DNA from: Leptolinea tardivitalis
GTDB lineage: Bacteria; Chloroflexota; Anaerolineae; Anaerolineales; Anaerolineaceae
Direction of reading: 5' to 3'
Assembly (NCBI RefSeq): GCF_001050275.1
Contig: NZ_BBYA01000010.1
Location: 496,001 to 560,000 of the forward strand
Length of the DNA: 64,000 nucleotides
Positions within the stretch are counted from its first letter, which is position 1. Each line of letters begins with the position of its first letter. Positions 3,631 to 27,255 of the stretch are shown in pieces. The translations under genes and the position numbers were made by a program. Under the pieces are notes generated by a model that worked only from the letters and a program-made list of their open reading frames with translations, was not told the DNA's origin and ran no database searches.

Positions 3631-4392
3631 ATGCCTGATAGTATCAAACTAACCGTAAAGCAACTTGCTTCTCTCGCTGGTGTTAGCGTGCGCACGCTGC
3701 ACTATTATGATGAAATCGGGTTGCTCAAACCCGAAGATGTTGCCGCGAATGGATACCGCCAATACGGGGAGGCATCTTTGTTGAGATTGCAGCAAATTCG
3801 ACTGTACCGTGAAATGGACATTCCGCTCAAGGATATCCGTGATCTTGTTGCTCAGTCAGATTTTGATGCGGTGCAAGCCCTGCAGGCTCACCGAACCTCG
3901 CTGCAGGAGAGGATAAAACGGCTGGAACAACTCATAAAGACAATCGATAAAACGATTGAGCACCTGGAAGGAAAACGCAAAATGAAACAATCGGAATATT
4001 TTGAAGGCTGGACGGAAGAAAAGCAGCCGAAATTTGAACAGGAAATCCGTGAAAAATATGGAGAGCATGCCATGGATGGTGTGGTTGAATGGAATAGCTA
4101 TACGAAAGAGAAAAAGGCTGCCATTATGGCTGAAGGTCAGGCAAATATGCTGGCGATGTCCAATCTGATGGATCGCCTTCCGCAAGACGCCGAAGTTCAG
4201 GCGGAAGTTGCCCGCTGGCATCAGCACTTGAAATATTTCTATGATCCAACAATTGAACGCATGCGCGGGCTGGGTCAGATGTATGTGGATGATCCACGAT
4301 TTGGATCCGTTTATGAGAAAGTGAAACCTGGATTGTCCCACTTCATGAAAAAAGCCATAGATGCTTATTGTGACAGACTGGAAGGCAAATAA
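3631..4392 (+). CDS. MerR family regulator with TipAS-like ligand domain
   Basis: 253 residues from the ATG at 3631. An in-frame GTG at 3625 lies between the -10 and the predicted start of transcription and is unlikely. Residues 4-72 form the MerR winged-helix DNA-binding domain (TVKQLASLAGVSVRTLHYYD). A coiled-coil dimerisation helix follows to about 115. The C-terminal half (about 116-250, from MKQSEYFEGW) is a TipAS-type helical domain, which in TipAL and related proteins binds peptide or thiopeptide antibiotics. It probably senses a toxic compound and controls its own promoter. No efflux or resistance gene is adjacent, so other targets must lie elsewhere. Confidence 0.9.
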   Translation: MPDSIKLTVKQLASLAGVSVRTLHYYDEIGLLKPEDVAANGYRQYGEASLLRLQQIRLYREMDIPLKDIRDLVAQSDFDAVQALQAHRTSLQERIKRLEQLIKTIDKTIEHLEGKRKMKQSEYFEGWTEEKQPKFEQEIREKYGEHAMDGVVEWNSYTKEKKAAIMAEGQANMLAMSNLMDRLPQDAEVQAEVARWHQHLKYFYDPTIERMRGLGQMYVDDPRFGSVYEKVKPGLSHFMKKAIDAYCDRLEGK

Positions 4393-4424
4393 AGTCACCT
4401 CAATGTGATGTCTAAATAACCAAA

Positions 4425-4458
4425 AGCAGAGGCCACAAAAATGACCTCTGCTTCTTTT
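4425..4458. terminator. Bidirectional terminator between MerR gene and chemotaxis receptor
   Basis: The stem AGCAGAGG (4425-4432) with CCTCTGCT (4445-4452), further extended by CA/TG, is flanked by TCTTTT on one side and AAAA on the other. It can end transcription of both convergent genes. Confidence 0.75.
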
Positions 4459-4473
4459 CACCTTACTACAAAG

Positions 4474-9436: not shown

Positions 9437-10369
9437 GTGGAAATTGCTCGCCGGAAACCGGATCTTACAAACCAGAACAGATGGATGCCAAACAATCGCT
9501 GGCGCAATTGGATTGGAGTCATTCCATTTTTCCTTTTTATTATTGCCTTTGTATTACTGCCTTCAACCAATTTATTTATTGGAGCTTTCCAGGATAGCAA
9601 AGGAAACTTTACCTGGGAGAATATCTCCGTACTGGCTAATCCGTATGTGCTGAAATCATTCAGTATCAGTCTCCAGGTTAGCGTGATAACCTCACTGGCC
9701 GGGGGAATACTTGGCTTCTTCGTTGCGTACGCTATCACTATTGGAAAAGCTCCTCAATGGATGCGCAATATCATAATGACATTTTCCGGTCTGGCGGCAA
9801 ATTTTGGTGGTGTTCCGCTGGCTTTTGCCTTCATTGCCACACTGGGGCATACGGGTTTCATAACAACTTTCTTGAAAACAATTTGTTTTCCTGGAACAGG
9901 AGGGGTTCAAACGTGTCCCTTTGATATTTATGAAACAGGATTCAATCTCTACAGTCTGACAGGATTGACCCTGACGTATATCTATTTTGAATTTCCGCTG
10001 ATGGTTCTTACCATTACACCGGCCCTCGAAGGGTTGAAGCGTGAATGGCGGGAAGCATCAGATAATCTGGGGGGAAGTACCATACATTACTGGGTATTTG
10101 TCGCCCTTCCCATTTTAATGCCGTCTATTCTGGGTGCCATGATTTTACTTTTCGCCAGCGCCTTCGGTGCGTTTGCCACTGCGCAGGCGCTCACTGGAGG
10201 GAGCATCTATCTGGTAACAATATTGATCGGCCAGCAGATCAGGGGTGATGTGCTTAACAACCCCAATGAAGGATATGCCCTGGCTCTGGGTATGGTGATT
10301 GTAATGGCCGTCTGTATCGCCGGGTACTCCATTTTGCAGCGTCGAACAGCGCGATGGTTGAAATCATGA
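9437..10369 (+). CDS. ABC transporter permease, phosphonate/polyamine type (first)
   Basis: 310 residues from a GTG start with AAAGGAG upstream. There are about six membrane segments. The EAA-type coupling loop is seen as EGLKREWREASDNLGGSTIH (about residue 197). The loop contacts the ATPase encoded at 11182. This is a BPD-type inner-membrane subunit, paired with the second permease, whose start overlaps its stop. The pair would form the channel for the substrate delivered by the lipoprotein at 8078. Confidence 0.9.
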   Translation: MEIARRKPDLTNQNRWMPNNRWRNWIGVIPFFLFIIAFVLLPSTNLFIGAFQDSKGNFTWENISVLANPYVLKSFSISLQVSVITSLAGGILGFFVAYAITIGKAPQWMRNIIMTFSGLAANFGGVPLAFAFIATLGHTGFITTFLKTICFPGTGGVQTCPFDIYETGFNLYSLTGLTLTYIYFEFPLMVLTITPALEGLKREWREASDNLGGSTIHYWVFVALPILMPSILGAMILLFASAFGAFATAQALTGGSIYLVTILIGQQIRGDVLNNPNEGYALALGMVIVMAVCIAGYSILQRRTARWLKS

Positions 10370-11160
10370 AAACTACCAAATATAACTTCTGGGGAATTTT
10401 CTGGGCCGTGGTGGGATTGTTGTATTTTTTCATCCCCCTGTATGGAACTCTCGAATTCTCTCTACGTATGATCAAAGGGAGATTAAGTTTTGAAGCATAC
10501 CGGATCATTCTGGAAGATCCAAAATTTCTGGAGAGTTTTCGTTACTCGGCCATTATGGGGTTAATCACAGTTCTGATCAGTGTGATGATTTTCCTTCCCA
10601 CTGTTTACTGGATTCATTTGAGATTGCCCAGTGTGCGACCCATCATTGAAGTGATCACTATTTTGCCGTTCATCATCCCGGTGATTGTGTATGTTTTCGG
10701 CATAATCCGTACATTCAGCAGACCGCCCCTGCAAATGACTCTTCATCCATTCACGACTGATATTCTGATGGTGGCGGGATATGTGGTGCTTTCTATGCCA
10801 TATATGTACCGGGCTCTTGATGTGGGAATGCGCTCAATTGATGTTCGCACTCTCACCGAAGCCGCCCAGAGCCTGGGATCAAATTGGCTTCAAATTTTGC
10901 TGAATGTGATCATTCCCAATTTACGGATTGCCATTTTAAGCGGATCATTGATTTGTTTTGCCACAGTAATTGGAGAACTGATCCTTGGCGATTTTCTCGT
11001 TCGTCCGGCACTGGGTCCTTATATGGTGTTGATAGGCCGCGATCGAGCGTATGAACCAGCGGCGCTGGCCATCCTCAGCTACGGCCTGACATGGTTGTGT
11101 CTTGGGCTTATCCAGGCTGTCAGCCGAGGTGGTACCAGCCAACAGCTTACTGGTCGTTGA
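10366..11160 (+). CDS. ABC transporter permease, phosphonate/polyamine type (second)
   Basis: 264 residues from the ATG at 10366, which overlaps the preceding stop as ATGA; an in-frame ATG 12 bases upstream is less likely. There are about six membrane segments and the coupling loop DVRTLTEAAQSLGSNWLQIL near residue 165. It is the heterodimer partner of the permease at 9437. The overlap indicates translational coupling and equal amounts of the two permeases. Confidence 0.9.
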   Translation: MKTTKYNFWGIFWAVVGLLYFFIPLYGTLEFSLRMIKGRLSFEAYRIILEDPKFLESFRYSAIMGLITVLISVMIFLPTVYWIHLRLPSVRPIIEVITILPFIIPVIVYVFGIIRTFSRPPLQMTLHPFTTDILMVAGYVVLSMPYMYRALDVGMRSIDVRTLTEAAQSLGSNWLQILLNVIIPNLRIAILSGSLICFATVIGELILGDFLVRPALGPYMVLIGRDRAYEPAALAILSYGLTWLCLGLIQAVSRGGTSQQLTGR

Positions 11161-11181
11161 AAAAAAGAAAGCGAGGTGTCT

Positions 11182-12231
11182 ATGAGTTTCATCGAGCTAT
11201 CCCATGTTAACAAACAATTTGCCAGCAATACCGCAGTCAAAGATTTTAATTTAGAGGCCAATCAGGGTGAATTCATATCGTTTCTTGGCCCAAGCGGATG
11301 TGGAAAGACCACCACATTGCGCATGATCGCCGGATTTGAACTACCTACCTCCGGGCAGGTAACCCTGGCCGGTCAGGATATGACCTATACGCCCCCGAAC
11401 CGTCGTAAAGTGGGTATGGTTTTTCAATCCTACGCCCTGTTCCCCAACATGACAGTAGCCGAAAACATTGGATATGGATTGCGGATTGCTGGAAAGCACA
11501 AATCAGAGATCAAAAAACGTGTTGACGAAATGTTAATCCTTATCCATATGGAAGATTTTCAATCACGCTTCCCGGGGCAGCTTTCCGGTGGTCAACAGCA
11601 GCGCGTAGCTCTGGCACGTGCCCTGGCTTTTCAACCGCAAGCTCTGCTCCTCGATGAGCCTCTATCTGCCCTGGATGCAAAAATTCGGGTGGAACTTCGC
11701 CAGGAAATCAAACGTATCCAACAACAACTGGGCATTACCACTATTTATGTTACTCACGATCAGGAAGAAGCCCTGTCATTATCAGACCGGATCGTTGTAA
11801 TGAATCAAGGACACATTGAGCAGGTGGGTACCCCGTATGAGGTATACAAAACTCCCGCAACAGAATTTGTTGCTTCATTTGTGGGCCATTTGAATCTATT
11901 ACCGGTAAAAAGTTTTGATATTTCTCAAAACAAAGCTCAGTTAAATGGTTTTTCCATTATTTATGGCCGAATTGCAGAAAAATTTTCTCCCGATAAACCC
12001 TGTCTGGCGGTGCGTCCGGAAGAAATCAATCCTGGAAAGGTGGAAGGCCAAAATAATCTCCAGGGTGTGGTAGACAGCATCCATTACCTTGGATCAATCG
12101 TACGTATTCGGGTTAATGTTCAGGGAACCGTTTTTATTCTGGATCAGTTCAACGATTACCGTCTGGCTATTCCACGCGTGGGTGACCTGTACGATTTTCA
12201 TTTTCCGGTGGAAGCCTGCTGGTTGATTTGA
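11182..12231 (+). CDS. ABC transporter ATP-binding protein, PotA/FbpC type
   Basis: 349 residues from the ATG at 11182 (GCGAGG upstream); the GTG at 11176 is in frame but too close to that site. The nucleotide-binding domain spans about residues 1-235, with Walker [11 protein letters not shown]-loop [10 protein letters not shown], signature [15 protein letters not shown], Walker [12 protein letters not shown] and the switch His in [13 protein letters not shown]-terminal TOBE/OB-fold domain follows (about 240-349). It powers the importer encoded just upstream. The gene ends at a strong terminator. Confidence 0.92.
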
Positions 12232-12256
12232 TGCCACTTCGTTCAAAATAGCCTTT

Positions 12257-12313
12257 AAAAAAAACTGCACCCCTTTTTGTTGGTAGTGCCCAACTATTGG
12301 GGTGCAGTTTTTT
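12257..12313. terminator. Strong bidirectional terminator between importer and phnX
   Basis: CTGCACCCC (12265-12273) pairs with GGGGTGCAG (12299-12307), flanked by A8 and T6 runs that also pair. An inner GTTGG/CCAAC hairpin sits in the loop. It can terminate both convergent transcripts. Confidence 0.88.
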
Positions 12314-12328
12314 AGAGCCGCATGTTTT

Positions 12329-13165
12329 TCAATCTCGCGGGCTCTCACCCTGTTTTATCCGATAATTGATTTCCTCCAGAATAAGAGGACAATCCGCCAA
12401 TCCATCCACCACATAATGAGCGCCAGCCTTATATAATTCTTTCGCAGCAGATTCCCGCCGTTCTTTAAAAACCTGATCAGGGAGTTCTTTTACTTCTTTT
12501 TCTGTCAATCCCATCAGATTCCCGGTGACGGATAATCCAATCGTCCACATCCCGGCATTAATTCCCTCTTCTATATCAACAACAGTATCGCCGATTTTAA
12601 CGAAGGCTTCCATCGGGTATATCTGTAGTTGTATCGCATTCTGGTAGATCATCCAGGGAAAAGGTCTGCCGGCAGGAACATCTGTTGCTGAAACCCAGGA
12701 ATCGGGGGTGTAACCGTTTTCTCTGGCAATGGGAACCAGCACATCCATCATTTCGCGTGTATAGCCGGTTGTGGATCCAATTTTTAAACCCAAATCACGA
12801 AAAGATGCTACTGCCTGAAGTACACCAGGGATCACACCAGCATATTCTTCCAGACAATGCATCTGCCTGGGAACAAAATCAGCAAACATCTCGTTGATCT
12901 CTGATTCGGTTGGTTTATGGCCATAAACCAATAGCCAGTCTCGAGTGACCTCCGGATTATCCGCAATCGCTTGCAAGTGATCCTTTTTCATTAACCCCAT
13001 AGGCGCCCGTGCCTGCGCGGCTGTAATAGGTACACCCCGGGAAGCAAACAGATCCATGAAAACAGCTGTGGGCGCAAACGAACCATAATCAACGGTGGTT
13101 CCTGCCCAATCAAGAATAACTCCCCTCAATTCCCCTTTATATAAACGATGATTTTGAATTTTCAT
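12329..13165 (-). CDS. phnX: Phosphonoacetaldehyde hydrolase
   Basis: 278 residues, normal for PhnX. It cleaves the carbon-phosphorus bond of phosphonoacetaldehyde to acetaldehyde and phosphate. The HAD nucleophile is seen in ILDWAGTTVDYG (residues about 17-28). The Schiff-base Lys that defines the family is in MGLMKKDH (about residue 60). A later acidic motif, KIGDTVVDIEEG, binds magnesium. It lies 33 bases downstream of phnW, which supplies its substrate, so the two form the complete 2-aminoethylphosphonate degradation pathway beside its importer. It is cytoplasmic. Confidence 0.95.
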   Translation of the reverse strand: MKIQNHRLYKGELRGVILDWAGTTVDYGSFAPTAVFMDLFASRGVPITAAQARAPMGLMKKDHLQAIADNPEVTRDWLLVYGHKPTESEINEMFADFVPRQMHCLEEYAGVIPGVLQAVASFRDLGLKIGSTTGYTREMMDVLVPIARENGYTPDSWVSATDVPAGRPFPWMIYQNAIQLQIYPMEAFVKIGDTVVDIEEGINAGMWTIGLSVTGNLMGLTEKEVKELPDQVFKERRESAAKELYKAGAHYVVDGLADCPLILEEINYRIKQGESPRD

Positions 13166-13198
13166 TGCAACTCCGCTGTCATTGGATATTAAATAGCA

Positions 13199-14323
13199 TC
13201 AATAGGCGTGAACCAGTTCGATATCCATTTCAGCCAGCGTCTCTTTAATTGCTGAAATTAACATAAATACGTCGGATTCATCCAACCGGCCAATATGACC
13301 GATGCGAAAGCAGTCGGCATGGCTCAATTTACCGGGATATATGACACATCCTTTATCACTTAATTTCTGGTAAAACGTAAGAAACGAAAAGTTGCTGTGT
13401 GTGGGATATCGGAATGAGGTGATGATGTACCCGCGGTTATCGGGGTCAAGATACGGTATGAAACCCATCTTTTGCATCTCGCGTAGAGTCATTTCATAGT
13501 TCTTTCGGTATCTTTCACCACGGGCTTCGCAGCCGCCTTCTTCATCCAATTCAACCAAAGCCTGATGAAATGCTCGGATTACCTGTATTGGAGGGGTAAA
13601 TCGAAATTGCCCATTCTTCTCAAGACCTTCCCACTGGGCTAATAAATCTAGGGCCAGTGAACGGGAAGAGCCTTTGGATGAAATCAATACATCTTTTCGC
13701 GCCAGAATAAATGAAAATCCGGGAACTCCTTCAATGCACTTATTTGAAGAAGATACCAGGAAATCAATGCCCCAGGCTTCTACCGGAATGGTATACGCTC
13801 CAAATGAGCTCATAGCATCTACGATATAAATACAATCATGGTTCTTAACCACCGAACCGATTTCTTTAATTGGATTGATAATACCGGTGGTAGTTTCGCA
13901 ATGTACAACAGCTACATGGGTTATTTCTGGATCAGAGTCCAGATTTTCTTTCAAAAATAAAACATCCGGAATCTGATTTTCAGGGCATTGTTGAATCACC
14001 ACATTAATGTGGTGCATTTGTGCGATTTGCACCATGCGCTCTCCATAAGCACCATTTACCAGCACCAGCAACTTGCCATTTGCCGGAATAATGCTGGAGA
14101 GAACAGATTCGACACCAAAAGTGCCACTTCCCTGCATAATGATGCTGGTGTACTTTTCTTCCGAACAGCCGCCCAGCTGAACCAGACGTTTCCGGATTTC
14201 CTTAACCATTTGAATAAATTCAACGTCACGTGATCCCATATCACACAACATGGATTGCTTCACTGTTCGACTGGTGGTTAATGGACCAGGGGTGAATAGT
14301 GCCTTGTCTTTCCAGGTATTCAT
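13199..14323 (-). CDS. phnW: 2-aminoethylphosphonate--pyruvate transaminase
   Basis: 374 residues, a fold-type I PLP aminotransferase of the PhnW/serine-pyruvate family. It moves the amino group of 2-aminoethylphosphonate to pyruvate, giving phosphonoacetaldehyde and alanine. The N-terminal [16 protein letters not shown] and [11 protein letters not shown] motifs are typical. The PLP-binding Lys is in [12 protein letters not shown] (about residue 195), and the Asp that holds the pyridine ring is in [10 protein letters not shown]. It is followed by phnX on the same strand. Together with the importer on the opposite strand this makes a self-contained phosphonate scavenging locus. Confidence 0.95.
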
Positions 14324-15664: not shown

Positions 15665-17020
15665 TTAGACAATTCCGTAAGCCAGCATGGCCTTGGCTAC
15701 CTTTAAGAAACCGGCGATATTGGCACCAACCACATAATTCCCTTTTGCACCGTACGCTTCAGAAGCCTCAAGGCAGGATTGGTGAATATTCTTCATAATG
15801 CCCTGAAGACGCTGGTCTACTTCTTCGCGAGACCAGGTAAGGCGCATAGCATTTTGAGACATCTCGAGGCCGGAAACAGCCACACCACCGGCATTGGCTG
15901 CCTTTCCAGGACCATAGAGCACATTCTTTTCCAGGAAGATATCCACGGCATCGAGTGTAGTCGGCATGTTGGCGCCTTCGGAAACACAGAAACAGCCGTT
16001 TTTAACCATTGCCTCGGCATGGGCAGCTTCAATTTCATTTTCATGGGAAGACGGGAACGCCAAATCCACTTTGAGATTTTGTTCCTTGATCACATCCCAT
16101 GGACTCTTATTGGCAAAAAATGGAACGTTGAATTTCGCGGCATATTCGCTGATCCGTCCGCGCCGATAGTTCTTAAGATCGAGAACGTAGGCCAGCTTTT
16201 CAGCCGTGATTCCAGATTCATCCACTATGGTGCCATTTGAATCAGACAGAGTGATGGGTTTGGCGCCAAGCTGGATGAGCTTTTCGACGGTGTATTGTGC
16301 CACATTACCCGATCCGCTGACGGCGGCTGTTTTGGCGGCAATTTCCTGTTTGCGGGTGCCCAGCATTTCAGAGGCAAAATAGACAGAACCATAGCCGGTG
16401 GCTTCAGGACGGATAAGACTGCCGCCATATTCCAGTCCTTTGCCGGTCAATACGCTGGCATTCTGGTTGACGATTTTCAAGTAATACCCGTAGAGATACC
16501 CGATCTCGCGGGCGCCTACACCGATATCACCGGCCGGAACATCTGTATCAGGACCGATATGGCGGTACAGTTCGCGCATGAAAGCCTGGCAAAACCGCAT
16601 GACCTCGCCATCTGATTTACCTTTGGGATCAAAATCAGAACCGCCTTTAGCACCGCCCATGGGCAGTGTGGTCAGGGAATTTTTGAAGATTTGTTCAAAT
16701 CCGAGGAATTTAATAATGCCAATATTCACAGACGGGTGGAACCGAAGTCCGCCCTTATAAGGTCCGATGGCGTTGTTGAACTGGATGCGGAAACCACGGT
16801 TGACCTGTACCTCACCGCTGTCATCCACCCAGGGTACTTTGAAAAGAATAGCCCGGTCGGGAACGGCAATACGTTCATATATTTTTGCTTTAACAAAGTC
16901 AGGGTGTTTGGATACTGTTGGTTCCAGTGAAGTCAATACTTCTCTGGCCGCCTGTAGAAATTCAACCTGACCGCTGTCTTTTTCCTGAAGTTTGGCAAGA
17001 ACATCCTGAATCACTGACAT
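15665..17020 (-). CDS. gdhA: Glutamate dehydrogenase, hexameric NADP type
   Basis: 451 residues, the usual length for the bacterial small hexameric enzyme that makes glutamate from 2-oxoglutarate and ammonia. The substrate lysines are visible in GPYKGGLRFHP, EQIFKNSL and PMGGAKGG, and the catalytic Asp in VPAGDIGVG. The dinucleotide site is SGSGNVAQYT, with LSDSNG at the end of the second strand; the Ser there fits NADPH rather than NADH. All catalytic residues are present, in contrast with the homologue at 18847-20136. It is the last gene of the nitrogen cluster and is separated by 104 bases from the gene above it, so it may also have its own promoter. Confidence 0.95.
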   Translation of the reverse strand: MSVIQDVLAKLQEKDSGQVEFLQAAREVLTSLEPTVSKHPDFVKAKIYERIAVPDRAILFKVPWVDDSGEVQVNRGFRIQFNNAIGPYKGGLRFHPSVNIGIIKFLGFEQIFKNSLTTLPMGGAKGGSDFDPKGKSDGEVMRFCQAFMRELYRHIGPDTDVPAGDIGVGAREIGYLYGYYLKIVNQNASVLTGKGLEYGGSLIRPEATGYGSVYFASEMLGTRKQEIAAKTAAVSGSGNVAQYTVEKLIQLGAKPITLSDSNGTIVDESGITAEKLAYVLDLKNYRRGRISEYAAKFNVPFFANKSPWDVIKEQNLKVDLAFPSSHENEIEAAHAEAMVKNGCFCVSEGANMPTTLDAVDIFLEKNVLYGPGKAANAGGVAVSGLEMSQNAMRLTWSREEVDQRLQGIMKNIHQSCLEASEAYGAKGNYVVGANIAGFLKVAKAMLAYGIV

Positions 17021-17124
17021 AAGGCTTCTTCATCCTCCCGACTAAATCTGATGACCAGTTTTATCATCAGGAGGATTGGAATTTTATAAAAATTGAGGGG
17101 TAAAAAATCAAAATTTCATAAAAA

Positions 17125-18837
17125 TTACGGACAGCAGATCACACCCCTGCCGCTGCGGCCGTCCACTTTGATTTTAAAGGGTAACGGTGTCTGTATTTGG
17201 CGGACGAATTCCATGTCTCGCACAATTTTTTGTTTTTCCAGCCATTTCCACTTTACACGCCGTGGACAGTTGAATGGCATGGAGAAATATAAGACTCCCA
17301 GATTTATGATGTTATGGAAGTAATGCGAACCCTGGCTGAGTTCAACTTTGACATTTTCCTGCGTAGCTTCCACAATCACCTTTGCGCCGCATACCTGCCC
17401 CCAGGTGACAGGGATTCCTAACCAGGGATCGAATGTTCCCAGGCGGCCAAAAACGATCAAGATATACGGCCGTTCTTCCATCAGAAGATGCCGGTTGATG
17501 ATCTCCAATTCTTCGGCAATCTGACGGGTATATTTCAATTCGAACTTGTCTGGTTTGACGTAAACGACATCAACAATATCATTCACACTTCCATTTCCGA
17601 GCACAAGTTCTGAAGCCGCCAGATTTTTGGAATTTGAAAGATCCCTGTCTGAGACTTGCAGATGGACGGTGGGAATAACCATCGGCCGCACCTGCAGAAG
17701 GGCGAAATGGTGTGGGTTAAACGTCATGGCAAATTCAATTTCGACCGGGGTCCTTAGAGTTTTTTCGCAACAGGCCAGCACAGATTTGATCAGCAAATTG
17801 AGCGGTAAGATATCCAACGCCAGCAGCGGGGCAAACGTCAAGGCACGGGGGCCTTTGAACCCGAGCCCGGCAGAAAAACGTTCAGAAATGGGATCATAGG
17901 TGGAAGCCAGATATTGCAGCACATCATCTTCTTCTGCTGCCTGTAAGTTCAGTCTCTGCATGTACTCCGTCTCTTTGATCGGATCATATTCGGGGAGTTC
18001 ACCCATATTCACCACCCAGAATTCGTTCTGGGTTTCAGAGAATATTTCATCCACCGACTCGAATGGTGGTGGACGTTTGGGATACGCGGGAGAAAATGAC
18101 CAGGTTTTTCCCCCATCCACGATCGTTTTTCCCAGACCAAGCGCCAGATCCACCACGCCATCCTGCGGCCTGGCTGGTTTGATGGGATAGTAATTGAACG
18201 ACCGGGCAACACCCGACAGTTCAGGGTAATAATGGTCGCTATGCCGTTTGCCCACCATATTCTGTAATATGACGGCCATCTTTTCGGTACAGATATCCAG
18301 ACCAGTTGCCCGGCAGTAGTCTTTTGAGATTTTGAAGAACGTGGAAGCCCAAACAAATTTTATGGCCTCCAATAATTTTCGGAAGCGGACATCCGGGTCA
18401 TGCTGGTTGTTGGGAATCATTTTTGTAGCATAAACGCCCGCAAACGGCCGGCGCGCGGCATCTTCAAGAAAACCTGATGAACGCACAGCCAGCGGCGTGG
18501 TCAGGTTCATCACCAGGTTGCGAAGTTCACCCAGTACTTCAAATGGCATATCGGCATTCATGAATGCATACGTTATGCGTTCATCCGGCATGTCACTTCT
18601 GGCAATATCCGCCAGATCATTTCGTTCGATGAAGGCCTCGAAAACACTGGTTCCCACAACAGTAAATGAAGGAATATCTACTGTGATTCCGGGAATTGAA
18701 CCATTTATCTCGGAGAGGGCATTTTGCATCGAGAGGAGTCCCAGCGCTTTGCCGCCAATTTCTGCGCGAGTATCCTCAGAATCATCCAGGATTGAATAAC
18801 CCTGCTTCAATCCAATGAAATGGAACGTGTCAAACAT
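17125..18837 (-). CDS. PEP/pyruvate-binding ATP-grasp protein lacking the phosphohistidine domain
   Basis: 570 residues. The N-terminal 380 or so residues resemble the nucleotide-binding domain of pyruvate phosphate dikinase and PEP synthase: GGKALGLLSMQNAL, the phosphate-binding AVRSSGFLEDAARRPFAGVY, and EFAMTFNPHHFALLQVRPM at its end. The swivelling domain with the catalytic His and the C-terminal PEP/pyruvate barrel are missing; full enzymes have about 800-900 residues. The last 170 residues (FGRLGTFDPWLGIPVTWGQV, then QGSHYFHNI) form a separate conserved region that I cannot name. The gene starts nine bases after the preceding dehydrogenase homologue, so they form one operon. The activity is unknown, perhaps ATP-dependent sensing or phosphotransfer. 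Confidence 0.75.
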   Translation of the reverse strand: MFDTFHFIGLKQGYSILDDSEDTRAEIGGKALGLLSMQNALSEINGSIPGITVDIPSFTVVGTSVFEAFIERNDLADIARSDMPDERITYAFMNADMPFEVLGELRNLVMNLTTPLAVRSSGFLEDAARRPFAGVYATKMIPNNQHDPDVRFRKLLEAIKFVWASTFFKISKDYCRATGLDICTEKMAVILQNMVGKRHSDHYYPELSGVARSFNYYPIKPARPQDGVVDLALGLGKTIVDGGKTWSFSPAYPKRPPPFESVDEIFSETQNEFWVVNMGELPEYDPIKETEYMQRLNLQAAEEDDVLQYLASTYDPISERFSAGLGFKGPRALTFAPLLALDILPLNLLIKSVLACCEKTLRTPVEIEFAMTFNPHHFALLQVRPMVIPTVHLQVSDRDLSNSKNLAASELVLGNGSVNDIVDVVYVKPDKFELKYTRQIAEELEIINRHLLMEERPYILIVFGRLGTFDPWLGIPVTWGQVCGAKVIVEATQENVKVELSQGSHYFHNIINLGVLYFSMPFNCPRRVKWKWLEKQKIVRDMEFVRQIQTPLPFKIKVDGRSGRGVICCP

Positions 18838-18846
18838 GAAGATATA

Positions 18847-20136
18847 TTAAACCCAGCCGCGTTCCTGGCAGGCAAGAGCCACTCGATCAATCGCCGCCAT
18901 ATATGCCGCATCGCGCATGGGAAGGTTATGTTTGCGCGCAAACGTGCTTACATCAAAATAAGCAGATGTTAAATGGGTATCCAATTTACCCAGCACTTCA
19001 TCTTTCGACCAGTAGTAATTCATATTGCTCTGCACCTGCTCAAAATAACTGCAAACCACCCCGCCGGCATTGGCAAGGATATCTGGGATCACATGAATTT
19101 CCCGGTCTTTCAATACAGGATCAACATCCATATCGGTTGGACCATTGGCCGCTTCGGCAAGGATTTTTACCCGCCGGCTGATCTTTTCCACGTTATCCGG
19201 CCTGATCTGGTTTTCCATGGCTGCCGGAACCAGAATGTCAACATCCTGCTCAATCCAGGCGTCACCCGGCAGGCACTCACAGCCCATATTAATGGCTTTT
19301 TCCTTGTTGATCTCGCCGAACGGATCGGTGATCGCTGAAATCTGTTCAAAATCAATGCCGTCTTTTTTCCGGAAAGCATACGATGTGTGGTCGGTGTGGT
19401 TCAGGCAGGCAATACAGGTCACCCGGCCGCCCATTTGCGTATAAAGTTGAACCGCATGCCGCCCAACGGTGCCAAATCCCTGTACGCTGGCTGTGGTTTT
19501 CTTGATATCCAAACCAAGTTCTTTCAAGGCCTCACGGACGGCGATCATTACACCAAAACCTGGGGCTTCTTTGCGCCCCTTTGAGCCTGATAATCCAACC
19601 GGTTTTCCGGTAATGAAACCGGGGCTTTTTACCCCATGAATGGCTTCATACTCATCCAGCATCCACAACATATGCTGCGGACCCGTCATAATGTCAGGGC
19701 CCATCACATCCCATTCGGGGCCGGAAGAATAGGCTGTTTGACGGACAAAGCAGCGGCATAAACGTTCCTGTTCCTTTGGAGTAAGATTATGAGTATCCAC
19801 CGCCACACCGCTGCTGCTTCCTCCCAGCGGCAGACGTGTTACTGCACACTTCCATGTCATCCACATGGAGAGTGCCCGGATAGTATCCAACGTTTCCTGA
19901 GGATGAAAACGAATGCCGCCTTTGGTAGGACCCAGGGCGTCGTTATACTGCACTTTGTAGCCCCGGAAAATCTTCGTTTCACCGCTGTCCAGATAAACCG
20001 GAAGGCTGAACGAATATTCGCGGCGGGGCATACGCAAGAATTCTCGCATGGCCGGATCAAGGTTGATCAGGTCGGCAATGCGGTCAAATTGTTTTTGAGC
20101 CGATTCGAAAATATTGTATGAGGTTTCAATACTCAT
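18847..20136 (-). CDS. Glutamate dehydrogenase homologue without the catalytic lysine
   Basis: 429 residues, full-length Glu/Leu/Phe/Val dehydrogenase fold. Substrate-site residues equivalent to the first two lysines are kept (GPTKGGIRFHP, Lys72; MTWKCAV, Lys96). The third and catalytic Lys, normally in GGGKGG or GGAKGG, is Ser: the sequence is LPLGGSSSGVAVD, Ser108, codon at 19813-19815. The Asp of the usual PAPD/PAGD motif remains as MGPD. The Rossmann motif GFGTVG is intact, but the strand that normally ends in Asp or Ser is replaced by ACLNHTDHTSY. Loss of the Lys should abolish normal deamination, so a regulatory or sensing role, or another reaction, is likely. It is three bases from the response regulator gene and nine from the PEP/pyruvate-binding protein gene. 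Confidence 0.82.
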   Translation of the reverse strand: MSIETSYNIFESAQKQFDRIADLINLDPAMREFLRMPRREYSFSLPVYLDSGETKIFRGYKVQYNDALGPTKGGIRFHPQETLDTIRALSMWMTWKCAVTRLPLGGSSSGVAVDTHNLTPKEQERLCRCFVRQTAYSSGPEWDVMGPDIMTGPQHMLWMLDEYEAIHGVKSPGFITGKPVGLSGSKGRKEAPGFGVMIAVREALKELGLDIKKTTASVQGFGTVGRHAVQLYTQMGGRVTCIACLNHTDHTSYAFRKKDGIDFEQISAITDPFGEINKEKAINMGCECLPGDAWIEQDVDILVPAAMENQIRPDNVEKISRRVKILAEAANGPTDMDVDPVLKDREIHVIPDILANAGGVVCSYFEQVQSNMNYYWSKDEVLGKLDTHLTSAYFDVSTFARKHNLPMRDAAYMAAIDRVALACQERGWV

Positions 20137-20139
20137 GAT

Positions 20140-20964
20140 TCATTCACCCTTTCCGGCGGGGATATCAACCGCCAGCATATAGCCTACTCCCGGCTTGCTG
20201 ATGATCATTTTTGGCCGCTGTGGATCGTTTTCCAATTTTCGCCTCAAGATATGAATATAAGACCGCAAGTAATCAACCTCACTGGCATATTGCCTGCCCC
20301 AAACCGCCGAAAGCAATTGCTCATGCAATAAGACCTGTCCCTGGTTTCTGGCGAGTTCCAGGATCAAATTGAATTCCGTTTCAGACAGGTAAACATCATT
20401 CCCGGCCACCATCACCTGCCGACCCGGAATATTAATTTTCAAATCACCGCAAACGATCTCCGTTTTCTTAGGGATAGCGTCTTTCGGTTGGCAGCGATGT
20501 AAGACAGCCCGCATACGGGCCAGAAGAATTTTCCCATGCACAGGTTTACTGATGTAATCATCGGCTCCAGATTCGAATGCCCGCAGAATATCATCGGGTT
20601 CTGTACTGGCACTGACAAAAATAATGGGAGCGTCGGTAAAATCCCGGATGCGGCGGGCAACTACGCAGCCATCGATTTCTCCCTCAAGGTTCATTTCAAG
20701 GAAGACCAGATCGGGCTGCTCTTTTGCTGTCATTTCGACGGCCAGATCGCTATTGCGCACTGAAAGAATACGCACATCGGCATCAGCCAGGAGATGGCGC
20801 ATTAATGTAATATGTTTCGAATCGCGATCTGCAACAAGCAGCGTATATTTTTTCGGCATGTAACCCATTGCAGAGTAAAGGGAATGGTTTAACAAGTATA
20901 GTAGCTTTTCGATTCTTCGTTGAAGGTTCAGTTTCATCCTACTGGTTCCTTCTTTCCCATTCAC
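20140..20964 (-). CDS. OmpR-type response regulator with Glu at the phosphorylation site
   Basis: 274 residues. An N-terminal extension of about 38 residues precedes a receiver domain (about 39-155) and a winged-helix DNA-binding domain (about 165-268; LSETEFNLILELARN and YLRSYIHILRRKLE). The phosphoacceptor position reads PDLVFLEMNLEGEIDG: the normal Asp is Glu90 (codon 20695-20697). The first residue of the acidic pair is also changed (VADRD instead of V-D/E-D). The conserved Lys is present in ISKPVH. It is probably not phosphorylated in the normal way and may be constitutively active or controlled by a protein partner. No histidine kinase is adjacent. The start is uncertain; ATGs at 20937 and 20859 are also in frame. 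Confidence 0.85.
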   Translation of the reverse strand: MNGKEGTSRMKLNLQRRIEKLLYLLNHSLYSAMGYMPKKYTLLVADRDSKHITLMRHLLADADVRILSVRNSDLAVEMTAKEQPDLVFLEMNLEGEIDGCVVARRIRDFTDAPIIFVSASTEPDDILRAFESGADDYISKPVHGKILLARMRAVLHRCQPKDAIPKKTEIVCGDLKINIPGRQVMVAGNDVYLSETEFNLILELARNQGQVLLHEQLLSAVWGRQYASEVDYLRSYIHILRRKLENDPQRPKMIISKPGVGYMLAVDIPAGKGE

Positions 20965-21093: not shown

Positions 21094-22587
21094 TTAACCT
21101 TTGAGCTCTGTTTCACCCATCAAGAAACGATCCACTTCCCGTGCGGCTCCACGTCCTTCATGAATTGCCCAGACGACCAGGCTCTGGCCGCGGCGCATGT
21201 CTCCGGCGGCGAAGATCCCGGGAACACTGGTGGTGTATCGGCCGTATTCCGCCTGTACATTTGTACGTGCATCGCGGGCGATGGCCAGTTTTTCAATTAG
21301 TTGATCTTCTGGACCAAGGAAACCCATGGCAATCAGTACAAGCTGCGCGGGAAACACTTTTTCCGTTCCGGGAATTTCACGCGGTTCTTTGCGTCCATTT
21401 GCACCGGTGACCCATTCCACCTGGATCGTGTGAATTTCCTTAACCCTGCCATTATCGTCACCGACTATTCGTTTGGTCTGAACATTGAAAATGCGTGGAT
21501 CTTCTCCAGAGACGGCCATGGACTCTTCCTGCCCGTAATCCACTTTGAGAACACGCGGCCACTCCGGCCACGGGTTGTCTGCCTGACGGACTGGTGAAGG
21601 TTTATCCAAAATTTCAAACTGGGTTACACTGCGGCAGCCATGCCGCAGAGCCGTACCGACACAATCTGTGCCGGTATCTCCTCCTCCAATCACAATCACG
21701 TCTTTTCCGCGGGCTGAAATTACAGTCATTCCGTCATCTTCCAGAGTGCTGCCTAAAAGATTGCGGGTATTGCCGGTCAGGAATTCCATGGCAAAATGGA
21801 CGCCTTTTAACTGTCGGCCTTCCACCGGTAAATCACGCGGTTTGGTCGCCCCGCAGCATAGGACGGCGGCATCAAAATCAATCAACAGTTTTTCGGCAGG
21901 CAGATTTCTGCCAACTTCCGTGCGGGTGACAAACTCAATCCCTTCCGCCGACATCAAATCTACCCGGCGTTTCAGGATGGACTTATCCAATTTCATGTTC
22001 GGGATGCCATACATGAGCAGGCCGCCAACTCGATCGGCGCGTTCAAACACCGTAACAGAATGACCGGCCCGGTTCAGCAAATCAGCACAAGCCAAACCGG
22101 AAGGTCCGGACCCAACAACCGCCACTTTTTGGCCTGTCCGCCGGGCAGGCGGTTCAGGAACCATCCACCCTTCAGCAAACCCTTTTTCAATAATGGCCAG
22201 TTCATTGTTTTTAATGGTTACGGGCGGGTTCGATATCCCCAGCGTGCAGGAACCTTCACATGGAGCCGGACAGACGCGTCCGGTGAATTCAGGGAAATTG
22301 TTGGTTTTATTCAGCCGTTCCAGGGCTTGCTGCCAAAGGCCGTGATAAATCAGGTCGTTCCATTCGGGGATCAAATTGTGGATTGGACAACCTGCCGCAC
22401 TGCCATTGAAAATCCGGCCTGTGTGGCAGAAGGGTGTTCCACAATCCATGCAACGAGATGCCTGTATTTGCAGTTTTTCCTCAGGAAATGGCCGATGAAA
22501 TTCCTTCCAGTGCAGAATTCGCTCTTCCGGTAAAAAATCAGTCGGCAATTCGCGTTGGTATTCCATAAATCCGGTTGGTTTGCCCAT
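21094..22587 (-). CDS. gltD: Glutamate synthase small (beta) subunit
   Basis: 497 residues, typical for GltD. It transfers electrons from NADPH through FAD and iron-sulfur centres to the large subunit for glutamate synthesis from glutamine and 2-oxoglutarate. The N-terminus has the GltD opening [13 protein letters not shown]. Cysteines for the 4Fe-4S centres are in [11 protein letters not shown] and [12 protein letters not shown]. The FAD site is [15 protein letters not shown] and the NADPH site [13 protein letters not shown]. It lies 18 bases downstream of gltB in the same operon. A 129-base spacer separates it from the response regulator gene, so transcription may continue into that block. 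Confidence 0.96.
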
Positions 22588-22605: not shown

Positions 22606-25600
22606 CTAATTCCCGCTCGCACGAACCTGCGCATGGGTATTGAGCTGGAAAGCAGCCATCACAGCTTCTTCTCCGGAAATGCCGGCTGCCTCCACTTCAC
22701 GAATGGCCTCAAGCACGTGTTTATAGTCTTTTGGCAGTACCTTCACAATCCTCTGGCTGACATCATTCCACTTTGCCAGAATTCGATGAGCCAACGGACT
22801 GGAAGTTAGCCGGGCATGGTTTTCAATCAGGGTTCTGACCTCATCCTGTTCCGCCGGGTCTTCAAGGTAACCGAGCTCAACCATCTCTTGATTGCATTTC
22901 TGATCAAAATCAGCATCCCAATCTATTACATAGGCAATGCCGCCAGACATACCAGCGGCGAAATTGCGCCCGGTGCGGCCAAGCACAACCACCCGTCCGC
23001 CCGTCATATATTCGCAGCCGTGGTCACCCACCCCTTCCACAACGGCTGTCATACCGCTGTTGCGCACGGCAAACCGCTCTCCGGCAACTCCGCTCACATA
23101 CGCTTCGCCCGATGTGGCACCATAGAAAGCCACATTGCCAATGATGATATTTTCTTCCGGCGCAAACGGCGAACCGGCAGGCGGGCGCACAATCACCCTT
23201 CCACCGGAAAGTCCTTTGCCGATATAGTCATTGGAATCTCCTTCGAGTACAAGCGTAATCCCTTTCGGGATGAACGCCCCAAAACTTAACCCGGCTGAAC
23301 CATGGAAGGTCATATGAATGGTGTCATCCGGTAAGCCATCTGGACCATACCGGCGGGTTACCTCACTGCCGACCTGTGTTCCCACAACCCGGTTGACATT
23401 GCGGATGGGCATATCTATCGTGACCCGCTCTCCTTTTTCCAGTGCCGGTTGACAAAGATCGAGCAAAACCTTGCGATCCAGGGCTTTTTCCAGATTATGT
23501 TTCTGTTCGATAGTTCCATACCGATCCGTGTCTACAGAAACCTGAGGCATGTGCAGCAGTGGAGAGAGATCAACATATTTGGCTTTCCAGTGATTGATAT
23601 CTTTCCGGGGTTCCAGTTTATCCACCCGTCCAATCATTTCATCTACGGTGCGGAAGCCTAACTGCGCCATGATCTCGCGCATTTCACGGGCAATGAAATA
23701 CATGAAATTAACCACATGCTGTGGATCGCCTTTGAAATTCTTACGGAGTTCAGGGTTCTGAGTAGCGATACCCGTCGGGCAGGTATCCTGCTGACAGACA
23801 CGCATCATCACACAACCAAGAGCCACCAACGGACCGGTGGCGAAACCGAATTCTTCCGCACCCAGCAAAGCTGCCATGACCACATCGCGGCCAGTTTTTA
23901 ACTGTCCATCTGTTTCAAGCACCACCCGGCTGCGTAAATTGTTCATTACCAGAGTCTGGTGGGTTTCCGCCAGCCCCAATTCCCAGGGAAGACCGGTATG
24001 TTTGATGCTGGAGAGCGGCGACGCTCCTGTACCGCCGTCATGCCCGCTGATTAAAATGACATCGGCATGGGCTTTTGCCACTCCAGCGGCAATGGTACCC
24101 ACGCCAACTTCCGAAACCAGCTTGACATTGATGCGCGCCTGAGGGTTTGCGTTTTTCAGATCAGTGATTAATTCAGCAAGGTCTTCGATGGAATAGATAT
24201 CATGATGCGGTGGAGGGGATATCAAACCTACTCCGGGAGTGGAATGACGTACCTTTGCAATCCAGGGATAAACCTTCTTTCCCGGCAGTTGACCGCCTTC
24301 ACCGGGTTTGGCGCCCTGCGCCATTTTAATCTGCAATTCTTTAGCATGGATCAGGTAGTTGCTGGTCACCCCGAACCGGGCAGAAGCCACCTGTTTGATG
24401 GCACTGTTGCGGGAATCTCCCGAGTCGTCCGGTTCATATCTGGACGGGTCTTCTCCGCCCTCACCGGTATTGCTCTTGCCGCCAATGCGGTTCATGGCAA
24501 TGGCCAATGCTTCGTGTGCCTCTTTGCTGATGGAACCGTAAGACATGGCTCCGGTCTTAAAACGGTGGACGATCGATTCAATAGGCTCGACCTCATCCAG
24601 CGGTATGGGCTGATCCGCAAATTTAAATTTCAGCAGGTCTCGCAATGTGGCCAAACCATCAGCCTGGTTATTGATCAATTCGGCATATGCCTTATAAGCG
24701 GCATAATCATTATTGCGGACCGCCTGCTGGAGTTTGTAGATTGTCTCTGGATTGAACAGGTGATGCTCTCCATCTGCCCGCCACTGGTAATTTCCTCCAG
24801 AATCCAGAGTGCGCCCGTTTACCGCCCGATCGGGGAAGGCATGGGCATGCCGCATGGCCACTTCGCGCGAAACCACGTCAATACCGATACCGCCAATCCG
24901 TGATGGTGTGGATGTGAAGTATCGGTCAACAAATTCCCTGCTCAGACCGATGGCTTCGAAGATCTGTGATCCAAAATAGGAGGCAATAGTCGAAATCCCC
25001 ATCTTGGAGATTACCTTGACAACACCTTTAACGATGGCTTTGGTGTAATTGTGGGCTGCCGTGTGGTAATCGATTCCGCTCAGCAATCCCTGACTGATCA
25101 TATCTTCAATACTGGCATACGCCAGATAGGGATTAATGGCCAGTGTTCCATAGCCGATCAGCATGGCAAAATGATGTACTTCCCGCGGTTCGGCCGATTC
25201 AACCACCAGACCGATCTGTGTGCGGGTGCCCCGGCGCAGAAGGTGGTGATGAAGCCCGGAAACAGCCAGCAAGGCCGGAATGGGGGCATGGCTTTCATCG
25301 ATCCCCCGGTCAGAGAGAATGACGATATTAGCTTCGTCATTGGCGATTATCTCATCCACCCGTTTATACAGGTCATCCAATGCCTTTTCAAGACCCCGTC
25401 CATCTTCCTCCGGATTGAACAGGATAGGCAAAGTGACGGTTCGGAAATACAACCGGTTGAGTTGGCGGATCTTTTCCAATTCCTCATTATCAATGATGGG
25501 AGATTTCAGCTTGATCATGCGGCAGTTTTCAGGCCGCGGTTCCAACAGGTTTTGTTCCGAACCCAGCATCACTTCCGTGGAAGTGACGATTTCCTCGCGG

Positions 25601-27255
25601 ATGGCATCAATGGGAGGGTTGGTCACCTGGGCAAATAGTTGTTTGAAATAGTTGTAAAGTAACTGCGGTTTATCCGAAAGGACCGCCAGCGGAGTATCGT
25701 TTCCCATGGAACCAATCGGTTCCATAGCGTTGCGGGCCATGGGCGCCAGAATGGTGCGTAAGTCTTCAAAGGTATATCCAAAGGCATGTTGATACTGGCG
25801 GACTTTTCGCTGGCGTTCCTTTTCCTGCTGTTCCAATCCGATGCCGCTTAGGGGCGGCATCTGTGGATCAGGTAGATCTTCCAGATCCACCATGTATTTA
25901 TTCAACCACTTGCGGTACGGCCGAATGGTGGCCACTTCATGTTTGATCTCTTCATCACTGACAATGCGGCCGTCTTCTGTATCAATCCAGAGCATACGCC
26001 CCGGCTCTAATCGGCCTTTTTTGATGATGGATTCAGGGGGCAGGTCCAGCACACCCACCTCGGATGCCAGAATGACCAGATCGTTGTTGGTGACATAATA
26101 CCGGGAAGGTCGCAATCCGTTGCGGTCCAGGGTGGCTCCGATGCCGTTACCATCGGTGAATACCATAGAAGCCGGGCCGTCCCACGGTTCCATCATGGAG
26201 CTGTGGTATTCATAAAATGCTTTTTTTTCTTCACTCATGGTCTCATGGCGTGACCAGGGTTCGGGGATCATCATCATGATGGCATGCGGCAGTGAACGGC
26301 CGGTGAGTACCAGCAATTCAAGAACATTGTCAAAGATGGCCGAGTCTGACCCATCGGCATTGATAACAGGCAGAATTTTGGGCATGTCGCTGCCAAACAA
26401 GGGGCTCTGAAAATGGCTTTGTTCGGCATCTACACTGTTCATGTTCGCACGCAGGGTGTTGATCTCTCCATTGTGTGCCAGATAGCGGCAAGGGTGAGCG
26501 CGATCCCACGAAGGGAAGGTGTTGGTGCTAAAACGGGAATGCACCATAGCCAGGGCGGTTTCCATAAGCGGATCGGAGAGTTCAGGGTAAAAATGGCGCA
26601 CCTGGGTAGAGGTCAACATGCCTTTATACACCAGAGTCTTGTACGAAAGGCTGCATATGTAGAATTGCTGGTGGCCGGGCATGTCTCCATAGCGGAGAAT
26701 CTGTTCTGCACGTTTGCGAATGACATACAACTTGCGTTCAAAAGACATGCGGTCTTTAAGGTATGGACTGCGTTCGATAAAAACCTGCCTTACCACCGGC
26801 TGGGCAGCCCGAGCCGTAGCACCCAGCAGACTGCCATCTGTTGGAACCGTCCGCCAACCCAACACCTGCTGACCCTCTTCTAAAACAATTTCTTCAAAAC
26901 GCCTTTCCATGGCGTCGCGCTGGGCGTCATCCACAGGCATGAAAAGCATCCCAACACCATAATACCGGGGACCGGGAAGGTTAAACCCGGCGTATCTACA
27001 CTCTCGTTGCAGGAACCTGTGCGGAGTTTGAATCAACACACCGGCTCCATCGCCGGTATTCGATTCTGAACCACTGGCACCACGGTGATACAGATTATCC
27101 AGAATTGTTAAAGCATAAGAAATGATCTCATGAGAGGGAATCCCCTTGATGTTGACCACGAAACCTGTGCCGCAAGAATCGTGTTCAAATGATGGATCGT
27201 ACAGGCCTTGTCTGGGGGGAAGCCCGATTTGGGGTTGTTGGGTGGGTTCGATCAT
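22606..27255 (-). CDS. gltB: Glutamate synthase large (alpha) subunit
   Basis: 1549 residues, the usual size of GltB. The glutaminase domain is at the N-terminus. Its nucleophile Cys follows a short propeptide ([10 protein letters not shown]; Cys near residue 28), which is normally removed by processing. The FMN-binding synthase domain spans about 850-1230 and includes [13 protein letters not shown] and [20 protein letters not shown]. The 3Fe-4S cysteines are in [15 protein letters not shown]. The C-terminal beta-helix has the usual G-x-x-G repeats (for example [13 protein letters not shown]). With GltD it forms the main high-affinity ammonia assimilation route. It is the first gene of the cluster, preceded by 790 bases of non-coding DNA. 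Confidence 0.97.

Follow-up and report, generated by a model that had tools for sequence, protein, structure and literature searches.

A glutamate dehydrogenase homologue without its catalytic lysine, a short PPDK-type protein and a pseudo-receiver regulator as a candidate control module for gdhA in Leptolinea tardivitalis

The stretch of DNA analysed here, hereafter the window, comprises 64,000 nt of Leptolinea tardivitalis (contig NZ_BBYA01000010.1, positions 496,001 to 560,000) and harbours on its minus strand six genes which, in order of transcription, are gltB, gltD, a response regulator, a glutamate dehydrogenase (GDH) homologue, a protein resembling pyruvate phosphate dikinase (PPDK) and gdhA. 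The three central genes, namely the regulator (20140..20964, start codon uncertain), the GDH homologue (18847..20136) and the PPDK-like protein (17125..18837), are separated by gaps of only 3 and 9 bases, respectively, and the coordinates, strand and gaps given for them in a preliminary description of this DNA are correct. By Pfam, the regulator is of the OmpR/PhoB type (Response_reg and Trans_reg_C), the GDH homologue carries ELFV_dehydrog_N and ELFV_dehydrog, both far above cut-off, and the PPDK-like protein matches PPDK_N alone (residues 26–386). The best matches of the GDH homologue in the PDB are likewise GDHs. The downstream gdhA (15665..17020) exceeds the cut-off of the NCBIfam model for NADP-specific GDH and retains its catalytic lysine. 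Comparison with other loci and genomes (labelled L and G, respectively, in this analysis) identifies the three-gene block as a derived Anaerolineaceae form of a widespread cassette of GDH and PPDK-type phosphotransferases, with gdhA as its probable target.

As the preliminary description had proposed, the GDH homologue has lost its catalytic lysine, displaying GGSSSG in place of GGxKGG, with Ser108 at the position that we take to be Lys125 of the Clostridium symbiosum enzyme (substrate residues are assigned on the same assumed numbering). The four other substrate residues examined, K72, K96, D148 and S363, are retained in the window. Two further GDHs of the same genome (L002, L003) both possess the lysine, these being gdhA and an archaeal-type paralogue of 52 % identity on another contig. 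Across 147 genomes of the window's family, the short PPDK-like protein (hereafter PPDK-short) occurs in 18, and in every one of these the cassette GDH is devoid of the lysine, with Ser in 11, Ala in five and Met in two; the random restoration of lysine in relatives that the preliminary description had considered is thus not seen in the family. Lys96 varies in some relatives, being replaced by Glu, Arg or Asn, and it is Glu in the five genomes of the Ala subgroup. In a tree of 74 GDHs, nine lysine-less Chloroflexota copies form a single clade (SH-aLRT 91), and lysine-less copies from Zixibacteria (L136, Met) and Acidobacteria (L141, Ala) occupy long branches elsewhere, a placement which suggests about three losses amongst cassette GDHs.

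Despite this change the gene is tightly conserved. Compared with its nearest relative, the window's GDH homologue shows a non-synonymous divergence (dN) of 0.087 and a proportion of synonymous differences (pS) of 0.74 over 429 codons, the corresponding dN values being 0.059 for gdhA, 0.185 for PPDK-short and 0.242 for the regulator. Because synonymous change is near saturation, no exact dN/dS ratio can be given; on these divergences, the gene is nevertheless under purifying selection and constrained almost as tightly as the enzyme gene gdhA. That the protein is catalytically dead appears very probable to us and, given the missing lysine in all family cassette genomes together with this selection, it is most likely a non-catalytic regulatory protein, perhaps with binding of glutamate/2-oxoglutarate and NAD(P) retained.

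With regard to PPDK-short, the preliminary description had named it a phosphoenolpyruvate (PEP)/pyruvate-binding protein that had lost its phosphohistidine domain, and neither statement holds in that form. The protein ends at residue 570 and matches only PPDK_N at E ≤ 10, and it is the PEP/pyruvate barrel, the domain of PPDK that binds these ligands, which is certainly absent, rendering the name unfitting. Loss of the phosphohistidine domain is not confirmed: the corresponding Pfam model, PF00391, matches none of 53 aligned members (the window and 52 of 80 loci from other genomes), yet the C-terminal 176 residues, folded alone (pLDDT 93), find as top VIA-align matches rifampin phosphotransferase (RPH; Z 7.5, 110 aligned, 3.0 Å) and the phosphoryl carrier of PPDK (Z 7.2, 116 aligned, 4.0 Å), values below 8 being moderate, with pyruvate kinase and enzyme I amongst the further best fold matches. 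When the whole protein is modelled (pLDDT 87), it aligns with rifampin phosphotransferase over 286 residues (Z 27.5, 2.8 Å) and with PEP synthase over 361 (Z 26.6, 4.0 Å; model residues 3–570 on chain residues 8–466). Across the 53 sequences K30, R119, E366, E368, Q382 and R384 of the ATP-grasp part are invariant, presumably as catalytic positions, as are H505, F507, H508 and N509 in the C-terminal part. The active histidine of swivelling phosphohistidine domains starts a helix, and His505 lies at the start of one in the model. The C-terminal domain is thus probably a divergent phosphohistidine carrier (swivel) domain, the fold match and the invariant histidine being suggestive of this.

Nor is PPDK-short a truncated PPDK, since in 77 of 81 cases (the window and 80 loci) its open frame spans 551–661 amino acids (aa), as befits an old family of normal length; amongst the other four, three are short at contig ends and one is a 1684-aa fusion (L095). 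In a sample of 396 genomes of the class, the closest relative (55 % identity, 602-aa frame) comes from one other family, and 19 further relatives of 37–40 % identity have longer frames of 777–1069 aa. We regard it as reasonably likely that PPDK-short is an ATP:histidine phosphotransferase; that it acts on a GDH protein is a matter on which we are almost evenly divided, leaning slightly against.

The receiver domain of the regulator reads LVFLEMNL, with Glu at the phospho-acceptor Asp, so that this loss, too, was correctly identified beforehand. The same Glu is found in 11 regulators (window, L182, L183, L186–L193), and Asp is retained in six (L185, L087, L090, L094, G447 and G448). Glu and Ser/Ala states co-occur, as the preliminary description had suggested might be found, in that 11 of the 12 regulators adjoining a Ser/Ala GDH carry Glu. 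A histidine kinase is encoded directly beside all five assessable Asp regulators (the contig of L185 ends too soon), and beside none of the 11 Glu regulators, a count obtained with one kinase as probe that speaks of adjacency only and leaves room for an unlinked kinase; the sole match to this probe in the window is weak and 14 kb away (35245–36693). A tree built from joined GDH and PPDK-short sequences places the lysine loss at the base, ancestral to the Chloroflexota branch, and the change from Asp to Glu inside the window's branch, ruling out that Glu and Ser arose together. The Asp-to-Glu change is the later one, and it either arose repeatedly or was reversed in L185. What was previously described as three independent losses in one operon is hence better viewed as two true losses at different times, beside a PPDK-short that was never shortened. 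In many regulators, a Glu in this place can partly mimic phosphorylation (PMC12632262).

The arrangement of the block in other members of the family points to a constant core with a variable addition. The GDH homologue is followed by PPDK-short in 16 other family genomes, and in a seventeenth (G448) the two lie on separate small contigs, where adjacency is not seen; no internal stop interrupts the matched part of either gene in any of the 18 cassette genomes. The regulator precedes the pair in 11 of the 16. No regulator was found near the cassette in L184, L194–L196 or L198, and the best regulator matches anywhere in the five genomes concerned (G400, G526, G530, G529 and G423) are only generic, reaching at most 151 bits against 212–227 for orthologues in the same search. 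The regulator is thereby ruled out as an invariable member and, because L185 keeps Asp in its regulator and L184 and L194–L196 have none there, the three genes do not form an obligate unit: their order, which the preliminary description had proposed to look for, recurs in other genomes, but only the GDH homologue with PPDK-short does so constantly. In L184 (G400), three genes (3755–6232) lie directly upstream of the dead GDH, in the regulator's place; we presume from their appearance that they resemble a 2-oxoacid:ferredoxin oxidoreductase.

A link between the lysine-less cassette and gdhA is apparent at two levels. Amongst cassette loci, gdhA lies within 5 kb in 10/10 lysine-less and 2/31 lysine-bearing cases (Fisher 5.9e-8). 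This count covers 41 of 70 cassette GDHs, namely those flanked by 5 kb or more on each side, together with those having a linked gdhA; 29 were left out for short flanks (the lysine-less L088 among them), and L136, with 4.5 kb on one side, entered only by its linkage. Amongst family genomes, a close gdhA (at least 74 % identity) is present in 15 of 18 with the cassette and in 1 of 129 others (Fisher 1.1e-16, uncorrected for relatedness), so that 15 of the 16 family genomes with a close gdhA carry the cassette; seven of the other family genomes have a distant gdhA of 56–59 %. As gdhA and cassette reside on different contigs in G423 and G448, this co-occurrence is not a matter of linkage alone.

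Between PPDK-short and gdhA, two 18-bp sites spaced by 32 bp are conserved in three close genomes. In the window these are TTTTTATGAAATTTTGAT, the distal half (17107..17124, minus strand), and TTTTTATAAAATTCCAAT, the proximal half (17075..17092, minus strand). Without any matrix, a repeat spaced by 30–36 bp clearly beats shuffled sequence in four of nine regulator-positive loci (window, L182, L183, L189) and in none of four regulator-negative loci. A matrix trained on those four loci, and scored as pairs, was applied to 13 of 16 loci, L187, L190 and L193 being left out as they have no downstream gdhA, and four of the 13 being the training loci themselves. The pair is recovered in four of the five held-out regulator-positive loci (L185, 36.8; L192, 26.5; L186, 16.8; L188, 15.0), with L191 failing at 2.4, and in none of the four regulator-negative ones (scores of −6.8 to 2.1). 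Further genomes gave scores of 14.2 (G447) and 19.1 (G448), and none in G423. Overall, genomes with a close gdhA have the pair in 10/11 cases with the regulator (6/7 excluding the four training loci) and 0/5 without it, a Fisher value of 0.0014 that includes the training loci and reflects about three independent losses of the regulator. Since the pair is absent from all five regulator-negative genomes with a close gdhA, and also from all seven distant gdhA genes, a generic gdhA promoter element is disfavoured.

When 24 cassette loci were scanned (score ≥ 12), strong pairs were present upstream of gdhA only, with one off-target pair each in L188 (16.3) and L195 (15.7). The scan gave no pair in L187, L190, L191 and L193, in which the regulator is present, or in L094, which has an Asp regulator; in L087 and L090 the only pairs above threshold are also just upstream of gdhA, and weaker (18.8 and 12.4). 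Exact matches to the site pattern in the whole genome are the two window sites only, with one more at one mismatch. A reversed control pattern also yields three genome matches at up to one mismatch, and 7 of 100 shuffles of the window reached its count of single-site matches; because the reversed control equals the site count, how many single sites there are carries no weight, and the argument depends on their spacing, position and conservation. No conserved footprint was seen in the gap between gltD and the regulator. We consider the 32-bp-spaced repeat likely, with good confidence, to be an operator, and the regulator probably controls gdhA, the real glutamate dehydrogenase gene. The preliminary description had called for a mapping of the regulator's DNA targets, and these comparisons offer a plausible candidate for one just upstream of gdhA.

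More widely, a pattern-limited scan of named bacterial genomes found 87 loci, of which 80 were kept; phyla were assigned by record titles. One batch of loci was picked mostly for GDH and PPDK already seen close together, so that batch is not a frequency sample, and contigs carrying two labels (L085=L182, L158=L183, L086=L186, L097=L192, L089=L197, L090=L035) were counted once in the family and regulator counts. In at least 12 phyla the cassette consists of a GDH, PPDK-short, a long PPDK with a nucleotidyltransferase domain and, often, a metallophosphoesterase. An archaeal-type GDH occurs in the same locus in 69 of 80, plus two fragments (L138, L142), being encoded on the opposite strand in L101 and L163 and at a distance of 3.3 kb in L099; seven of the nine remaining loci have less than 1.2 kb upstream, and L132 and L145 have room yet no GDH. 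With the window included, 59 of 70 cassette GDHs retain the lysine. That this cassette is real seems to us practically certain.

Of the 76 loci that lie outside the window's branch, 72 have the long PPDK after PPDK-short (one of the 72 being a fusion), the other four comprising a fragment in L134 and three contigs that end within 47 bases. The long protein combines PPDK_N and the His motif of PPDK-short with a nucleotidyltransferase domain at its C-terminus, as assigned by Pfam on two members, in one of which a weak GAF match (E 0.067) is also seen at the start. Its nucleotidyltransferase motif (GS...SDID) fits the pattern in 51, and the His in all, of 55 full-length copies, and covalent modification of GDH by this protein is possible. 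Long PPDKs of about 1065 aa stand beside GDH, for example, in L035 (4552–7746) and in most of L087–L164. Of the 49 long PPDK copies with enough room, 40 have a calcineurin-like phosphoesterase (Pfam on two members) within 1.5 kb downstream, 32 by scripted rule and eight with open frames overlapping by 2–69 bases, and in 37 of the 40 it is on the opposite strand (e.g. L099, 12830–13735). In the stretches retrieved from the window's branch it did not turn up, although L198 has it; neither kinase, long PPDK nor phosphoesterase was found beside the genes of that branch. Single frames of 1684 aa (L095, 4059–9110) and 1738 aa (L154, 7640–12853) join or span PPDK-short and the long PPDK, hinting that the two cooperate.

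Related neighbourhoods are also seen around other GDHs. PPDK-type proteins of ~1000 aa directly adjoin NADP-type gdhA in four of five widely fetched Anaerolineae loci (L036–L039, L040 being the exception), as well as in three loci from other phyla (L130, L136, L154), making this a second type of GDH with a PPDK partner of its own; the protein of L036 has receiver-like, DUF5752 and PPDK_N domains. In L072 (G294) and L081 (G129), a kinase–regulator pair likewise has as neighbours a lysine-bearing GDH and a PPDK-type frame, 766 and 623 aa long, respectively, and G129 has three GDH genes within ~7 kb.

Taking these observations together, we lean towards the explanation that the window encodes a non-catalytic GDH/phosphotransferase module serving GdhA, together with a kinase-independent regulator of gdhA. 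Most likely, an ancestral two-component system phosphorylated on Asp controlled gdhA via the repeat and, in the window's branch, the neighbouring kinase would have been lost and Glu come in. PPDK-short would pass phosphate from ATP to His505 on the divergent swivel domain and, having no acceptor domain, would hand it to a partner in trans, GDH proteins being the first candidates because they are its usual neighbours. Because the core persists where the regulator is gone and goes together with gdhA, its probable target is GdhA or the supply of GdhA, with ATP and, we infer, glutamate/2-oxoglutarate being used. The regulator is envisaged to bind the 32-bp-spaced direct repeat and to work without phosphorylation, either because Glu locks it in an active-like state or because the pair of dead GDH and PPDK-short gates it by contact. 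Of the dedicated metabolite-sensing and transcription module put forward in the preliminary description, the transcriptional half thus gains a candidate operator at gdhA, and the sensing half is retained here as conjecture.

Several observations weigh against this explanation. For the carrier domain, the PF00391 result given above is joined by Foldseek, which alone returned no match for the C-terminal domain at E ≤ 0.001, and by an hhalign comparison with the PEP-utiliser family that was not significant. The change of Lys96 to Glu in the Ala subgroup argues against intact substrate binding there. In two Glu regulators the switch Thr/Ser is Ala or Cys, and in some pseudo-receivers the notion of a phosphomimetic residue has been refuted (PMC12632262). 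The matrix-free repeat is significant in only 4/9 loci, the same four that trained the matrix, and the correlation of lysine loss with gdhA linkage rests on ~3 events, for which an independent-pairs test cannot reach significance. G510, G513 and G520 keep core and regulator with no gdhA found. In the five loci where the core lacks an adjacent regulator (L184, L194–L196, L198), the dead GDH and PPDK-short must act without it. Conversely, G447 displays in a row (L257, 6985–13282) a kinase, an Asp regulator, the operator, gdhA and an 857-aa PPDK-type frame, with no PPDK-short and no archaeal-type GDH found in the genome; there, regulator, operator and gdhA manage without dead GDH and PPDK-short.

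The alternative that survives best is a heterohexamer of the Thermus type, in which the dead GDH would be the regulatory subunit of the unlinked, lysine-bearing archaeal-type paralogue (C3 in the window's genome), conferring a response to an allosteric ligand, with PPDK-short and the regulator as side players. Such a paralogue, at 50–53 % identity, exists in 16 of the 18 cassette genomes, with the lysine in all 16, and the two without it are only 85 % and 68 % complete; a catalytically inactive GdhA is moreover a documented regulatory subunit in Thermus thermophilus (PMC9570180), and the idea holds equally where regulator or gdhA is missing. However, as 36 of the 37 genomes sampled from the order possess a GDH of this kind, mostly without the cassette, its co-presence with the cassette is uninformative, and neither the co-occurrence with gdhA nor the constant PPDK-short neighbour would be explained. 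On this evidence we think the heterohexamer unlikely.

A second alternative, to which we give somewhat less credence still, separates the components altogether: the regulator alone would control gdhA, permanently on, and the dead GDH and PPDK-short would form an enzyme for a new reaction, such as phosphorylation of a substrate bound to the GDH fold, sharing the operon for common expression. This fits a regulator that comes and goes independently of the core, the gene row of G447, and the existence of PPDK-type enzymes with foreign acceptors and split subunits (HpeHI, PMC12167813). The same PPDK-short nevertheless stands beside lysine-bearing GDHs in other phyla, which favours GDH as the partner over a new substrate, and in the Ala branch a second substrate lysine is also gone. 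Lastly, relaxation or decay towards loss could be read from catalytic residues missing in two adjacent proteins, and from the kinase, long PPDK and phosphoesterase not found beside them, but is ruled out, in keeping with the preliminary description, by conserved frames without internal stops in 18/18 genomes, retained gene order and purifying selection on the GDH homologue, and is very improbable.

The module for GdhA that we favour is flanked upstream by gltD (21094..22587, minus strand) and gltB (22606..27255, minus strand), open reading frames whose translations we take to be the small and large subunits of glutamate synthase, and the same gltB/gltD order is found upstream in L182 and L183. 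Elsewhere, the window contains transport genes followed by what are presumably phnX and phnW, for use of 2-aminoethylphosphonate (9437–14323).

GDH stands at the branch point of carbon and nitrogen metabolism and, to our knowledge, its control beyond allostery is unclear in many bacteria. If GDH does have dedicated ATP-dependent phosphotransferase partners in many phyla, a general layer of nitrogen control is still to be described. Tentatively, and with more doubt than belief, we suggest that the parent cassette is an undescribed cross-phylum system for covalent control of GDH, a counterpart to GlnD/GlnE and glutamine synthetase, which in the window's branch was turned into a pseudoenzyme-based controller of GdhA and its gene. 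That branch would constitute a compact natural experiment, with catalysis lost and the protein kept, the adjacent kinase gone, the receiver Asp lost, and one exact candidate DNA target. In the open-access literature, no publication describing the cassette was found by title or abstract start; GDH pseudoenzyme subunits and Glu pseudo-receivers are already known, and it is their combination at this locus, and above all the parent cassette, for which no earlier description was found.

Amongst known systems, that of Bacillus subtilis has GDH acting on the transcription factor of glutamate genes, in the form of trigger-enzyme control by RocG/GudB and GltC. There, RocG is active and GltC is of the LysR type, whereas here the GDH is dead, the regulator is an OmpR-type pseudo-receiver and contact between them is hypothetical. 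In the GdhA/GdhB heterohexamer of T. thermophilus, an inactive GDH homologue and an inactive adenine phosphoribosyltransferase (APRT) homologue regulate a working GDH (PMC9570180), much as is proposed here. Unlike in Thermus, the close lysine-bearing paralogue is unlinked, the linked working enzyme is of the NADP gdhA type, and the partners are a PPDK-type ATP-grasp protein with intact catalytic residues and a DNA-binding regulator. PEP synthase/PPDK, rifampin phosphotransferase and the split kinase HpeHI (PMC4844700, PMC12167813) share with PPDK-short the PPDK_N ATP-grasp part and, by fold match only, a carrier-like domain, HpeHI being an example of the split forms that exist in this enzyme family; PPDK-short differs from them in having no acceptor domain and in recurring beside GDH. 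Finally, the Glu pseudo-receiver regulators described in PMC12632262 display the same Glu at the D position and no cognate kinase nearby, but in the present case, unlike for those, kinase-linked Asp relatives and a shared candidate operator allow the loss to be placed on a tree.

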